64,000 nucleotides of DNA, taken from positions 62,001 to 126,000 of the forward strand of contig JACAAZ010000007.1 of the NCBI GenBank assembly GCA_013376995.1. Reading direction: 5' to 3'. Position numbers and translations under genes: made by a program. The notes beneath the pieces were generated by a model. It worked only from the letters and a program-made list of their open reading frames with translations. It was not told the origin of the DNA and made no database searches. How positions within the stretch are numbered: the stretch's first letter is position 1; the number at the start of each line of letters is the position of its first letter. Below, piece by piece: positions 51,949-58,432 of this stretch. The DNA is from Bacteroidota bacterium (GTDB lineage Bacteria > Bacteroidota > Bacteroidia > Bacteroidales > UBA4417).

Positions 51949-52995
51949 TTGTTTGATCAACCTGCCATCTTCTACCAGAAAATGTTGGACGACATTAACC
52001 TGGCGGAAAAATATATCTACCTGGAAACCTATAAGTTTGGAAATGATGAAAGAGGCCTTCAATTCAGGAAGGCTTTTACGCGAAAAGCCAGGCAAGGAAT
52101 AAAAGTGAAATTGATGGTTGATTCCTGGGGTGTTTCCTATACTGAAAGCTTCTTTGAAGAACTTATTTCTTACGGAGGCGAGGTCAGGTTTTTCAGGAAG
52201 ATCAAATTTACATTCGACTTTTTTACCAAGAACCATCGCAGGAATCACAGGAAACTCCTGATCATTGATGATACTATCAGCTATATCGGATCAGCCAATA
52301 TAACCGGCTATTCGCATGATTGGCGGGAATCAGTCCTGCGTTTGACAGGAGGTATATCCGAAGCATTCAAGAAGTCTTTCCTTGAGAGCTTCAGGATTTA
52401 TAACCGATATATTTTCAATAAGTTATCATTCAAAAAGATCGTCCATGTAGGTGATTTTGAAATTGTACAGGACAATCCTTCTATTTACAGGCAGCAGATC
52501 AAGAACAAGTTAGAAAGGCTTATTAGTAAGGCGAAGCGTGAAATACTTATTGAAACTCCCTATTTTCTTCCGGGTTTCCGCCTTCGTAAAACCCTTGCAA
52601 AGGCTGCCGGGAAGGGAGTAAATATAAAGATCATTCTTCCCCAGCATTCGGATGTCCGTGCTGTTGATTTGCTGAGGAATAAGTATATGGGGTTCTATTA
52701 TAAAAACAATATCCATATCGTTTTCTATACTCCCAATAACCTTCATGCAAAGGCAGTTTTGATTGATGATGAGGTTTTTGGCCTTGGCTCGCCAAACATT
52801 GATTATCGTAGTTTTCGATATCAGCATGAGATCATGCTTTTTGGGAAAAACAAGGGCATTGTGAATGAGGTGAGGAATCACTTCCATGTATCTCTTGAGA
52901 GCTGCCTCGAGTTCGACCATGTTGCATGGATGCGTCGCCCCAGGTTTGAAAAGATGTTGGGATGGCTTTTATTGCCATTCAGGCACCTGTTTTGA
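51949..52995 (+). CDS. phospholipase D-like/cardiolipin synthase-like protein, uncertain non-ATG start
   Basis: 348 residues from a TTG at 51949. Two HKD motifs are intact: HRKLLIID in NHRKLLIIDDTISYIGSANI, and HAKAVLID in NLHAKAVLIDDEVFGLGSPN. Two copies mark a complete PLD-superfamily catalytic unit, as in cardiolipin synthases. There is no N-terminal membrane helix, unlike Cls of E. coli and more like ClsB-type enzymes. The frame is open back to a TAA at 51907, and family similarity (RLFDQPAIFYQKMLDDI) begins before the TTG. The first ATG is at 51982, inside the domain. The start is therefore TTG or a rarer codon. The 3' end leads straight into the repeat region before sucA. Confidence 0.82.
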   Translation: MFDQPAIFYQKMLDDINLAEKYIYLETYKFGNDERGLQFRKAFTRKARQGIKVKLMVDSWGVSYTESFFEELISYGGEVRFFRKIKFTFDFFTKNHRRNHRKLLIIDDTISYIGSANITGYSHDWRESVLRLTGGISEAFKKSFLESFRIYNRYIFNKLSFKKIVHVGDFEIVQDNPSIYRQQIKNKLERLISKAKREILIETPYFLPGFRLRKTLAKAAGKGVNIKIILPQHSDVRAVDLLRNKYMGFYYKNNIHIVFYTPNNLHAKAVLIDDEVFGLGSPNIDYRSFRYQHEIMLFGKNKGIVNEVRNHFHVSLESCLEFDHVAWMRRPRFEKMLGWLLLPFRHLF

Positions 52996-53010
52996 GGCGA
53001 GGCGCGAAGT

Positions 53011-53059
53011 GCTAAGGGCATAGGGCTTAGCGCTAAGAGCATAGTGCAAAATGCAAATT
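53011..53059 (+). repeat. degenerate heptamer tract, forward orientation
   Basis: Seven consecutive 7-bp units share the start GC and a purine/AT body: GCTAAGG, GCATAGG, GCTTAGC, GCTAAGA, GCATAGT, GCAAAAT, GCAAATT. A shorter second run starts at 53088 (GCTAAGA GAATAGT GCAAAGT). The tract begins 15 bp after the upstream stop codon. Confidence 0.7.
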
Positions 53060-53180
53060 GAAAAATTTAAAATGTTAAAGGTGGAATGCTAAGAGAATAG
53101 TGCAAAGTAATTAGACTCCATTCATGATCAAACACATCCCGCCTAAAGATAGTTTAACCCACAATTGGCCTATTTCCCCC

Positions 53181-53260
53181 AAGCGCTTTGCCCCCTGCGC
53201 TTAGCCTTCTTGCATTGAATGACCACCGAGTGATTAATGAATAACTATTGTGTGACAATA
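53181..53260. repeat. composite repeat A: reverse heptamers followed by four 11-bp units
   Basis: On the minus strand 53181-53213 reads as the same GC-led heptamers (GCTTGGG, GCAAAGC, GCAGGGG, GCTAAGC and others). Immediately after, on the plus strand, four 11-bp units follow (53217-53260): GAATGACCACC, GAGTGATTAAT, GAATAACTATT, GTGTGACAATA. Confidence 0.65.
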
Positions 53261-53302
53261 TTAGCCCGCAGAAGCGCAAAGCCGCTAAGTTTCCATTTAA
53301 TC

Positions 53303-53440
53303 CCTAAGCCCAATGCCCTTCGCTTTATGCCTTTTTGCTATGTCTGACCACCGAATGACTATGGAATGACTATGGAATGACTATGGAATGACTATGGAAT
53401 GACCATTGTCTGACCATCGAGTGACCATCGAATGTCCCTA
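53303..53440. repeat. composite repeat B: reverse heptamers followed by nine 11-bp units
   Basis: 53303-53338 on the minus strand gives heptamers GCATAAA, GCGAAGG, GCATTGG, GCTTAGG. From 53342 nine 11-bp units follow: GTCTGACCACC, then four identical GAATGACTATG, then GAATGACCATT, GTCTGACCATC, GAGTGACCATC and GAATGTCCCTA. The order heptamers then 11-mers is the same as in composite A, so the pair looks like a duplicated module. It ends 10 bp before the -33 box of sucA. Confidence 0.75.
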
Positions 53441-53450
53441 TTCCTTCCCA

Positions 53451-53482
53451 TTTGCACTATTCACACGAATATCCTATCTTTG
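53451..53482 (+). promoter_or_regulatory. sucA promoter (TTTG - 20 bp - TATCTTTG)
   Basis: TTTG at 53451-53454 and TATCTTTG at 53475-53482 are separated by 20 bp. This matches the Bacteroidota housekeeping promoter consensus in both boxes and spacing. It is the best promoter in the window. The expected leader to the ATG at 53560 is about 70 nt. Confidence 0.7.
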
Positions 53483-53559: not shown

Positions 53560-56349
53560 ATGGATACCTTATCCTATCTGAACAATGCCGATAGTTCAGC
53601 TCTTGAAGAATTATACCGGCAGTACAAAAAAAACCCTTCTTCTGTTGATTCTGGCTGGCAACGCTTTTTTGAAGGATTTGAATTCTCCGGTAAGCTTGGA
53701 TCCTCTTCCGGCGAAGTGATGAAACCACTGGAATTCAAGGTGATAGAGCTCATAAATGAATACAGGAAAAGGGGGCACCTGTTTACAAAGACGAACCCTG
53801 TTCGTACACGGCGCAAATACTCTCCAACTCTTGATATCGAAAACTACGGCCTTTCAGCTTCAGATCTTGATTCTTTATTTGAAGCAGGTAATGAAATTGG
53901 TATTGGCAAAGCAAACTTAAAAGACATCCTTGCTCACCTTAATGAGACATATTGCCAGTCAATAGGAGTCGAATTTGCTTACATACGAAGGCCCGAGATT
54001 TATGAATGGCTGAAAACCCGGATGGAAACTACCAGGAACAAAGCTGATTACAGCCGTGAAAAGAAACTGGCTATACTTGAAGAACTAAGTCGCGCCGTTA
54101 TCTTTGAAAAATTCCTGCACAAAAAATTTACAGGACAGAAGCGGTTTTCCCTTGAAGGTTGTGAGTCGCTTATCCCTGCCCTTGATGCCCTGATTGAAAA
54201 AGGATCAGAAAGCGGAATCAGTGAATTCGTAATCGGGATGCCACACAGGGGTCGGCTAAATGTTCTTGCCAATACACTTGGTAAGCATTACCAGGACATT
54301 TTCAATGAATTCCAGGGCAAGGAGTTTGAAGACGAAACCTTATTGGGAGATGTGAAATATCATCTTGGCTTCTCTTCTGAACGACAAACCAGGAGCGGGA
54401 AAACAATCTACCTTTCACTGGCGCCAAATCCTTCTCACCTTGAAACCGTTGGCCCTGTTGTAGAAGGAATTACACGTTGTAAAATTGACACCGAATATGG
54501 AAAAGATGCCTCACGCATAGTTCCTATCATCATTCACGGAGATGCTTCCGTTGCCGGACAGGGGGTAGTTTATGAAACCATTCAGATGTCTGAACTGCAG
54601 GGATATTCAACCGGAGGATCTATACACCTTGTGGTAAACAACCAGATAGGTTTTACTACCAATTACCTGGATGCACGGAGTTCAGTATATTGTACTGATG
54701 TAGCCAAGACTATTCAGTGCCCGATTTTCCATGTAAATGCAGATGCCGTGGAAGATGTGGTGTTTGTTATGGAGATGGCAATTGAATTCAGGCAAAAGTT
54801 TCATAAGGATGTATTTATTGACCTCCTTGGATACCGTAAATACGGGCACAATGAAGGTGATGAGCCCAGGTTTACACAGCCTATTCTTTATAAAATAATT
54901 GAGCAGCACCTGGATCCACGAAGCATATACATTGCCAAACTTATTGAAAGTGGAGCCATCAACCAGCCTGAAGCCGATGTCATTGAAAAAGAATTTCTGG
55001 AACGACTGGAGAGTGAGTTGCAGGCATCGAAAGGTGATGAGAAATCCAGAGTAATGACCTTCCTGCAACCTGCCTGGGATAAACTTCGCTATGCCACCGC
55101 AAGTGATTGGTTAAATCCCGTAGAAACAGGAGTAGAAAAAGAGTTTCTTGTCGAACTGGCAAAGAAAATTACTTTTCTTCCTGACGGTAAACCTTTCTTC
55201 AAGAAGCTTGTCAAACTTACTGAGGACAGGCGAAGCATGGTAGTGGATAATGGAATATTTGATTGGGCCATGGCGGAACTGATGGCATATGGGACATTGC
55301 TCACGGAAGGCATTCCCGTCAGGCTGAGCGGGCAGGATTCGCAGCGTGGAACCTTTTCGCACCGCCATGCAGTCCTTACAATGGAAGAATCTGAAGAGCG
55401 ATATACTCCACTTCAAAATATAAGCCCTGACCAGGCATCATTTGAAGTCTACAATTCACCACTATCTGAATATGGGGTGATGGCTTTCGAATACGGGTAT
55501 TCATTGGCTTCTCCCTTTGCACTAACTATTTGGGAAGCACAATTTGGAGATTTCTTCAACGGTGCCCAGATCGTTATTGATCAATACCTCTGCAGCGCCG
55601 AGGAAAAGTGGCGGGTCATGAATTCATTGGTGCTGTTGCTTCCACATGGTTATGAGGGCCAGGGGCCGGAACATTCAAGTGCCAGGATCGAGCGTTTCCT
55701 GCAGCAATGTGCCGAAAATAATATCCAGGTGGCTAATTGTTCCACTCCTGCTAACTTTTTTCATTTGTTGAGAAGACAGGTGCACCGTGATTTCAGGAAA
55801 CCATTGGTTGTATTTACTCCTAAAAGCCTGTTGAGGCATCCTGCTTGTGTTTCACCTATCACTGAACTTGCCACAGGTCATTTTATGGAAGTGATTGACG
55901 ATGAAAAAGTTAATCCTGCGGAGGTTAGCCGTGTCGATTTTTGTTCTGGCAAGGTTTATTATGATCTGATTGCAGAACGCGAAAAGAGGGGACGGTCGGA
56001 TGTGGCCCTGGTAAGGGTTGAGCAACTTTATCCTTTACCACTGGTACAATTAAAAGCAATTCTCAAGAAATACAGTAATGCTAAAGTATTTGCATGGGTT
56101 CAGGAAGAGCCTGCCAACATGGGTGCCTGGTCATATATGCTGAGGAATTTCAAAGAAGTGAAATTACTGCTTGTTGCAAGGCCGGAAAGCGGCAGCCCTG
56201 CTACCGGATCTTCGAAACTGCACAACCTGCGGCAAGCCAAGATCATTGATAAGGCTTTCGGAGATTGTACCTGCGAAAACCGCAATGAAACCTGCAAGAT
56301 GCTTTGTGCTCCCAGGGAATGGCAGTTTGTGGAAGAGAAATCAAGGTAA
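53560..56349 (+). CDS. sucA: 2-oxoglutarate dehydrogenase E1 component
   Basis: 929 residues from ATG 53560. A GTG at 53527 would add 11 residues, but MDTLSYLNNADSSALEELY begins like other family members. The N-terminal motif is SGWQRFFEGFEF. Thiamine-diphosphate enzyme motifs include GMPHRGRLNVLANTLG, HGDASVAGQGVVYE, GYRKYGHNEGDEPRFTQP, then RLSGQDSQRGTFSHRHAVL and LLPHGYEGQGPEHSSAR. It decarboxylates 2-oxoglutarate and transfers the succinyl group to the E2 lipoyl arm. It lies 119 bp before sucB. No lpd (E3) gene is in the window. Confidence 0.96.
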   Translation: MDTLSYLNNADSSALEELYRQYKKNPSSVDSGWQRFFEGFEFSGKLGSSSGEVMKPLEFKVIELINEYRKRGHLFTKTNPVRTRRKYSPTLDIENYGLSASDLDSLFEAGNEIGIGKANLKDILAHLNETYCQSIGVEFAYIRRPEIYEWLKTRMETTRNKADYSREKKLAILEELSRAVIFEKFLHKKFTGQKRFSLEGCESLIPALDALIEKGSESGISEFVIGMPHRGRLNVLANTLGKHYQDIFNEFQGKEFEDETLLGDVKYHLGFSSERQTRSGKTIYLSLAPNPSHLETVGPVVEGITRCKIDTEYGKDASRIVPIIIHGDASVAGQGVVYETIQMSELQGYSTGGSIHLVVNNQIGFTTNYLDARSSVYCTDVAKTIQCPIFHVNADAVEDVVFVMEMAIEFRQKFHKDVFIDLLGYRKYGHNEGDEPRFTQPILYKIIEQHLDPRSIYIAKLIESGAINQPEADVIEKEFLERLESELQASKGDEKSRVMTFLQPAWDKLRYATASDWLNPVETGVEKEFLVELAKKITFLPDGKPFFKKLVKLTEDRRSMVVDNGIFDWAMAELMAYGTLLTEGIPVRLSGQDSQRGTFSHRHAVLTMEESEERYTPLQNISPDQASFEVYNSPLSEYGVMAFEYGYSLASPFALTIWEAQFGDFFNGAQIVIDQYLCSAEEKWRVMNSLVLLLPHGYEGQGPEHSSARIERFLQQCAENNIQVANCSTPANFFHLLRRQVHRDFRKPLVVFTPKSLLRHPACVSPITELATGHFMEVIDDEKVNPAEVSRVDFCSGKVYYDLIAEREKRGRSDVALVRVEQLYPLPLVQLKAILKKYSNAKVFAWVQEEPANMGAWSYMLRNFKEVKLLLVARPESGSPATGSSKLHNLRQAKIIDKAFGDCTCENRNETCKMLCAPREWQFVEEKSR

Positions 56350-58126: not shown

Positions 58127-58432
58127 TTATTTAGAGGTGAAAAATGTGACATCTTCTAAAGGTATAACCTGGGCTAAAATGGTTGCTTGATGAACGTATA
58201 TTGTTGAAAAACTAGAAGACAAAAAATTTGATTTCAAGATAAATGAGGAGGAAATCAGTGGTCGATTTTACGTAATTGATAGCGATATATGAATTCTTAA
58301 TTATTTTCTTTCTTTGCTGTTCATTTTCTAATTAATTCATTTCCATCCGTCAGCTGACGGATCAAATTAACCTGATTTGCACAAAAGCCCCCTCCTTATG
58401 AGCAATTTGAATTCTCCAATTTGAATTTTGAA
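58127..58432. other. intergenic region with an 18-bp perfect palindrome
   Basis: 306 bp, AT-rich. It holds the palindrome at 58346-58363 and an 11-bp direct repeat CAATTTGAATT at 58403 and 58417. No gene is visible. The promoter of the small lipoprotein gene should lie in its left part, but I cannot assign it. Confidence 0.4.
58346..58363. repeat. perfect palindrome ATCCGTCAGCTGACGGAT
   Basis: The 18-bp sequence is exactly self-complementary and GC-rich within an AT-rich gap. It is about 70 bp downstream of the GT-C-like gene stop (minus strand) and 220 bp upstream of the small lipoprotein gene. It may be a dispersed palindromic repeat, a dimeric-regulator site or part of a terminator, although no T-tract follows. 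Confidence 0.55.

Follow-up and report, generated by a model that had tools for sequence, protein, structure and literature searches.

In the genome of a Bacteroidota bacterium (Bacteroidales, UBA4417; assembly GCA_013376995.1), tandem arrays of 7-bp and 11-bp units lie directly upstream of sucA, the gene for 2-oxoglutarate dehydrogenase E1. The locus raises the question of whether such arrays act on the gene that they precede or owe their place to some other process. The stretch analyzed comprises 64,000 nucleotides of contig JACAAZ010000007.1 (positions 62,001 to 126,000) and is called the window here. The arrays upstream of sucA are one member of a large dispersed set of polar intergenic 7-bp and 11-bp arrays. 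Their outward strand, defined as the one with GCWWAGN (heptamer) and GTCATTC (11-mer), tends to run 5'->3' outward from the nearest gene, at both kinds of gene edge (3' and 5') and whatever the strand of the gene. The value of the observation rests in this polarity rule and not in the sucA copy.

The sucA arrays and their dispersal

The arrays are bounded by an upstream open reading frame (ORF; 51949-52995, plus strand; named by eye, putatively phospholipase D-like) and by sucA itself, the next gene downstream (53560-56349, plus strand, ATG at 53560; named in the initial annotation, with which inspection by eye agrees). Between them are six repeat tracts, four of heptamers and two of 11-mers. 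All six are recovered by fixed detectors and lie far beyond what shuffled sequence gives, which confirms the 7-bp and 11-bp tracts of the initial annotation. The first heptamer array (GCWWAGN, 52997-53059, plus strand) begins one base past the TGA stop (52993-52995) of the upstream ORF and reads away from that gene. A second tract of this left arm was called by the detector at 53088-53108 (plus strand). The right arm has heptamer arrays on the minus strand at 53178-53205, reading away from sucA, and at 53303-53330. The 11-mer arrays (GARTGACNAYN on the plus strand, so that the outward strand, with GTCATTC, is the minus strand) occupy 53217-53260 (4 units, 44 bp) and 53342-53440 (9 units, 99 bp). 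Four units of the longer array are identical, GAATGACTATG; Tandem Repeats Finder reports 4.6 copies of this unit at 53353-53403 with 100% match, and the exact pair of such units is private to the sucA locus in the own genome. The heptamer pattern (one mismatch) has seven matches in the window, all at the locus, against a mean of 0.26 in dinucleotide shuffles (0/100 shuffles with seven or more). The 11-mer pattern (two mismatches) has nine, again all at the locus (shuffle mean 0.06; 0/100 with nine or more). A search of Rfam gave two matches, both far under the gathering scores, and blastn against plasmids and phages gave none.

The locus was suspected to hold a dispersed intergenic element of Bacteroidota, an idea that absence of other copies would have overturned. 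Many other copies exist, in the own genome (5.05 Mb, 43 contigs), in genomes of relatives and in listed GTDB contigs. Overlapping matches in the own genome number 50 for the three-copy heptamer pattern, in about 27 places, and 427 for the three-copy 11-mer pattern (up to 3 mismatches); since matches overlap within one array, these are not counts of arrays. Reversed-pattern controls for the two units gave 0 matches. Contigs C1, C4 and C36 of this genome end inside 11-mer arrays, which makes copy numbers lower bounds, and runs of N occur in some intergenic regions, where the assembly may hide the longest arrays.

Beyond the own genome, the 11-mer (up to 2 mismatches) was found in 11 of 16 genomes of the genus versus 1 of 44 outside it (60 genomes, own included). 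Of 395 genomes of the phylum (the own genome among them), 19 match the heptamer pattern and 14 the reversed control. The heptamer is thus a weak marker for the phylum, and only genomes with many matches stand out (own genome 50, G175 21, G225 18). A four-copy 11-mer scan of GTDB contigs yielded at least 106 stretches; those listed are mostly from Bacteroidales and other Bacteroidota, such as Lentimicrobiaceae, Prolixibacteraceae and Draconibacterium. Five listed loci (L170, L172, L195, L207 and L208) are labeled Ignavibacteria, Ignavibacterium, Desulfobacterales or Nitrososphaeraceae archaeon, which may reflect binning errors or a wider spread.

The arrays are not kept in place among the congeners compared. 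A SucA match is present in 14 of 16 genomes of the genus, own included, and the 13 congeners have 74-83% SucA identity to the own genome. Heptamer, 11-mer or other period-7 or period-11 arrays were found upstream of sucA in 0 of the 13 (700 bp searched; 477 bp in G004), among which there is no same-species strain; the lack of conservation that would have counted against a dispersed element is thus seen at the level of congeners. Ten of the 13 have promoter-proximal sequence in common among themselves (by eye). The nearest congener, G014 (83% SucA identity), shares with the own genome TTTGATCAAACAAACC, which neighbors the possible sucA promoter (by eye). In G014 alone, an ORF that resembles by eye a REP-associated Y1 transposase (RAYT-like, putative; L074) lies directly upstream of sucA.

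A second site, the gap between the biotin carrier and carboxylase genes (named by eye; the BCCP gap), was compared by tblastn at 14 loci, from which G015 was dropped for an unusable carrier hit. This gap is 262 bp long in the own genome, with heptamer arrays of both polarities. In the congeners it is 70-174 bp long, and heptamer or 11-mer arrays were found in 0 of 12; arrays therefore come and go at one site within the genus. The congeners may be too distant for either comparison. Under a looser threshold, G004, G009 and G014 have period-9 stretches at the gap, and periods 7 and 11 are therefore not universal.

Polarity at gene edges

Orientation was scored in two samples, with genes modeled by our own ORF finding and codon scoring, not taken from annotation. 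The own-genome set, which is exploratory, consists of the window, 400 kb of two contigs and 33 stretches round listed pattern matches. It has 121 scorable heptamer and 11-mer arrays, 117 of them intergenic and 4 in ORFs; 9 more without two flanking genes were left out. The holdout consists of 80 listed loci from other genomes (of the at least 106 stretches), chosen by the 11-mer and scored with the same detectors, and includes two loci (L177, L196) of the congener G003. Here 36 arrays that lacked a gene on one or both sides, and 1 array inside an ORF, were left out.

Within 70 bp of a gene edge, 52 of 57 arrays of the own-genome set are outward, 39 of 42 at 3' edges and 13 of 15 at 5' edges; arrays near 3' edges are thus the more numerous (42 versus 15). 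An earlier count with plain ORFs gave 31/33 and 14/15, respectively. In the holdout, 42 of 49 11-mer arrays within this distance are outward (3' edges, 29/35; 5' edges, 13/14). Only three heptamer arrays occur there, two in line with the rule, too few for a test. Arrays of one region are not independent, and counts were therefore also made with one vote per intergenic region: 32 regions for, 6 against and 8 ties in the own-genome set, and 49 for, 11 against and 4 ties in the holdout. Where a region has both orientations, these converge in 15 of 16 cases (own) and 5 of 5 (holdout), and own-genome regions with a single orientation still follow the rule 20:4, with 6 ties.

The two unit families also agree with each other. 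In the genome sample, neighboring heptamer and 11-mer arrays within 60 bp are jointly oriented in 35 of 36 pairs; a first count within 150 bp had given 29 versus 3. The order of heptamer and 11-mer at the sucA locus had been taken for a duplicated module. The order does recur, and is better read as an instance of this general joint orientation.

Arrays tend to begin at stop codons. An array starts no more than 12 bp from a stop in 20 cases, against a mean of 7.1 under random placement and a maximum of 17 in 2000 simulations. TAA is the stop in 3 of 20 array-edge genes versus 274 of 550 other genes (Fisher p=0.002). In 25 array-edge genes the final 30 bases of coding sequence are G-skewed (0.199 versus 0.043 in 544 others, p=1e-6), whereas bases 120-150 before the stop show no difference in G-skew between array-edge and other genes (p=0.27). 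The outward composition therefore extends into the gene ends.

Polarity is not confined to the two defining units. In the own sample, AAAAGAC is outward 14:1, GGAAGTC 6:2 and GCAAATT 6:2, and AACCAAT is inward 10:2 and GAACACG 3:0; these five were chosen after the sample had been seen, and some overlap heptamer arrays already counted. At L120 and L126, AAAAGAC heptamers run by eye in unbroken phase into GGCAAAG and GCTAAGC heptamers, because of which the heptamer families seem to grade into one another. Arrays found de novo in the own sample cluster at periods 7, 11 and their multiples; its intergenic DNA has none of period 9, 10 or 12, and two of period 13. The G-richer strand of period-7 and period-11 de novo arrays is outward 56:18 among 78 intergenic arrays of the own sample (4 without skew) and 69:20 among 94 at the listed 11-mer loci, a figure that is not independent of the holdout count. 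It is outward 14:2 among 17 arrays in 16 heptamer-chosen stretches from other genomes of the phylum and 7:1 among 8 in 200 kb of G003 (p=0.07). In array-free intergenic halves the outward tendency is weak (205 outward versus 155 inward, four classes), and the purine skew of whole intergenic halves is weak and uneven.

Explanations for the polarity

We tentatively favor, with somewhat less than even confidence, a reading of the arrays as repair scars of DNA ends that were extended at their 3' strands and then rejoined. The chromosome would break between genes, each broken end offering a 3' strand that points into the gap. This strand would be trimmed back, which would be tolerated only up to the gene, and would then gain repeats, both through slippage on the unit at its own end and with other arrays serving as templates. 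Both extended ends would finally be joined. With only 3' ends extended, the repeat would stand on the top strand at the left side and on the bottom strand at the right side, and repeated rounds would shift the array boundary outward until coding sequence was reached. Such extension and joining predict strand-independent polarity, the use of different units and the independence of a region's two arms, and trimming that runs as far as the gene predicts that arrays touch stop codons. The arms are indeed no more alike than arms of different regions (12 heptamer pairs and 4 11-mer pairs; 46 regions), as expected if two ends are extended independently. The same comparison led to the rejection of fold-back copying, in which one arm templates the other. 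Interstitial telomere-like repeats made by end addition have a G-rich strand whose 5'->3' direction leads to the former end, and here this is seen as a statistical tendency.

Several observations weigh against an origin in repair. The rule is weaker over whole intergenic regions (86/117 own-genome arrays, 66/84 11-mer arrays of the holdout). Divergent regions of the own genome are off the rule (4/9 arrays); in those of the holdout, 8/11 arrays follow it. The BCCP gap follows the G-rich rule by half, since in 10 of 13 genomes the plus strand of its right half is C-rich and its left halves fail (6 positive, 6 negative, 1 zero). Repeated rounds should leave an age gradient, yet arrays of the own genome are no purer towards the center of a region (11-mer n=29, heptamer n=37); in the holdout there is a slight rise in purity (34 up versus 20 down, p=0.013). 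Candidate enzymes fare no better. Ku was found in 0 of 16 genus genomes, and Ku-type end joining was rejected as the pathway. Telomere-like end addition would call for an enzyme that makes repeats from an RNA template. RVT_1 is present in 9 of the 16 and was not found in the array-bearing G003 (97% complete) and G013 (99% complete); a reverse transcriptase of this family as the required enzyme is thus not supported, other enzymes not having been searched. Lastly, the closest genomes compared were congeners.

A selected polar function is a rather unlikely alternative, in which arrays stop or pause sense or antisense transcription leaving the gene, or form G-rich structures. It would account for array starts at stop codons above chance, and it draws support from the G-richer outward strand, from GGG runs in the heptamer tracts of the window and from the regulatory locations that the available passages of Rehm et al. 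(2015; PMC4692102) propose for G-rich heptamers. The units, however, are dissimilar: AAAAGAC, the GTCATTC 11-mer and AACCAAT have no G-runs, and each is consistently polar. Binding or quadruplex function is disfavored because a sequence-specific function does not predict the polarity of different units. The polarity of units without G-runs argues against quadruplexes in particular. This argument rests on these three families, since GGG runs do span unit borders in the window heptamers. A reading of the window sequence finds no G-tracts able to form quadruplexes of the GGGAATC type: the GGG runs occur only across borders, at most three per tract where four are needed, and the 11-mers have none. 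The arms of a region also mismatch, the window tract folds weakly as RNA (z -1.90; 6/100 shuffles equally good) and the arrays are not conserved at sucA or the BCCP gap. Rehm et al., in the passages available, could not identify a role in gene regulation.

Ordinary replication slippage, in which selection on the sites that tolerate each strand would produce the polarity, is an improbable explanation. An excess of heptamers in bacteria is known, and slippage has been proposed for it (Mrazek, 2007, as cited in the available passages of PMC4679880 and PMC4692102). Slippage alone, however, does not orient arrays relative to genes, does not align two unit families with each other and does not place array starts at stop codons; all three are observed.

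Still less probable is a mobile element with terminal inverted repeats, whether a miniature inverted-repeat transposable element (MITE) or REPIN-like, whose ends are made of arrays. The copies are dispersed, the arms converge where both orientations are present and 11-mer-to-heptamer junctions look alike by eye. REPINs have conserved palindromic cores. REPIN/RAYT systems and the arrays are alike in being dispersed, intergenic and composed of paired inverted units; they differ in that no conserved core was found here. Among the 46 array regions of the own-genome set, no two have a 60-mer in common, and the sole pair sharing a 45-mer shares pure array; a MITE core was accordingly rejected, and neither core nor ends are shared between copies. 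The two arms of a region are not inverted copies of each other in the arm pairs compared, and inverted-repeat transposons, like fold-back copying, are disfavored because neither predicts independent arms. The single-orientation regions obey the rule as well.

Chi-like signals, halting end-degrading nucleases before the gene, are hardly credible. The outward orientation is the one a Chi site needs, the polarity is the same at both gene edges and the G-richer strand is outward. Several different units share this polarity, however, and in the coding part of the 464-kb sample single copies show no enrichment (mean z 0.03 for 16 heptamer units, z -0.75 for GTCATTC), on which ground Chi-like enrichment was rejected. 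The proposal of the initial annotation that the arrays phase or bend DNA to control the sucA promoter retains next to no credibility: the last array ends (53440) ten bases before a possible promoter (53451-53482, plus strand; TTTG-20 bp-TATCTTTG, which we take to be a Bacteroidota-type motif), but like arrays are not conserved upstream of sucA in the congeners, and similar ones lie beside many other genes, more often at 3' edges. Caution is advisable in reading such arrays as regulators of the next gene.

Relation to known repeats

The long simple sequence repeats described by Mrazek et al. and the cyanobacterial STRR reportedly have units of up to 11 nt, with heptamers the commonest in most genomes. 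Gene-edge polarity is not among their features as far as the available passages of citing papers tell. The arrays studied here share with heptamer-type repeats of this kind tandem units of 5-11 nt beyond chance and a dispersed, mostly intergenic distribution, and they belong to the known dispersed heptamer-type repeats. What is new is that several unit families, one of them an 11-mer, are mixed within an array and obey one polarity.

Bacterial heptamer arrays have long been known, and their origin and role are unsettled in the available passages of two studies (PMC4692102; PMC4679880). The first of these, by Rehm et al. (2015), describes in the passages available the heptamers of two Xanthomonas species (GGGAATC) and of Anabaena (Nostoc), with the unit GGGGA(C/T)T. 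These repeats lie close to the 5' neighboring ORF irrespective of its orientation, a placement that the present arrays show as a strong tendency. Coding-strand repeats that follow a stop codon and non-coding-strand repeats that precede a start make up the largest fractions. Convergent pairs occur in xanthomonads, few repeats lie between divergent genes and many are close to or over stop codons; quadruplexes are discussed. This placement is the same polarity rule, published in those passages without explanation. The arrays here resemble the Xanthomonas and Nostoc heptamers in being dispersed and intergenic, in their inverted convergent pairs, in their scarcity between divergent genes and in their proximity to stop codons. 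They differ in having several units without G-runs, one 11-bp unit and families mixed in one array. In Xanthomonas (Xcc/Xac) the heptamers are, by the same passages, kept between the same genes, whereas here arrays are not shared at the two genus sites compared, where the congeners are possibly too distant.

The second study, by MacGregor (2015; PMC4679880), concerns in its available passages the TAACTGA heptamer repeats of Beggiatoaceae, Cyanobacteria and a few Bacteroidetes. They too form intergenic heptamer arrays, sometimes mixed with other heptamers, and contigs end in them. They differ from the arrays here in that a single unit was studied, for which sites of translational regulation just upstream of start codons were proposed. 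In Flexibacter litoralis, 12 of 14 TAACTGA sets precede start codons in forward orientation and one, in reverse, directly follows a stop codon, positions that fit the same edge polarity. In the open-access literature, no published description was found of gene-edge polarity for units that are not G-rich or are 11 bp long, and the available passages of PMC7015867 are silent on it.

A wider proposal is that many bacteria heal intergenic breaks by adding short tandem repeats to both 3' ends before joining, through a polymerase pathway that would make the arrays a bacterial counterpart of interstitial telomeric repeats, and that the polar arrays of Bacteroidota, Xanthomonas and cyanobacteria would all be such scars, their orientation marking the places of healed breaks; we regard this as speculative and improbable as it stands. 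The strand-independent rule, seen across several units in Bacteroidota genomes and in the published Xanthomonas and Nostoc data, nevertheless poses a testable question about the handling of 3' DNA ends between genes.

Two further observations concern elements associated with the arrays. At L147 (G000:C23:219501-227500), one intergenic region contains three copies of a roughly 115-bp block that includes an 11-mer-to-heptamer junction, likely a local expansion of a composite unit. A 16-bp palindrome, TCCGYCAGCTGRCGGA, has its sole window copy at 58346-58361 and is dispersed genome-wide, with 72 forward and 68 reverse matches in the own genome, mostly in the same places on both strands (control, 0). 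It is often found within 11-mer arrays, where its position relative to the unit is constant. Of 33 copies read, 12 lie between direct 5-bp duplications, most often AATGA or TCATT, where shuffling expects 2.9; it may be a very small mobile palindrome.
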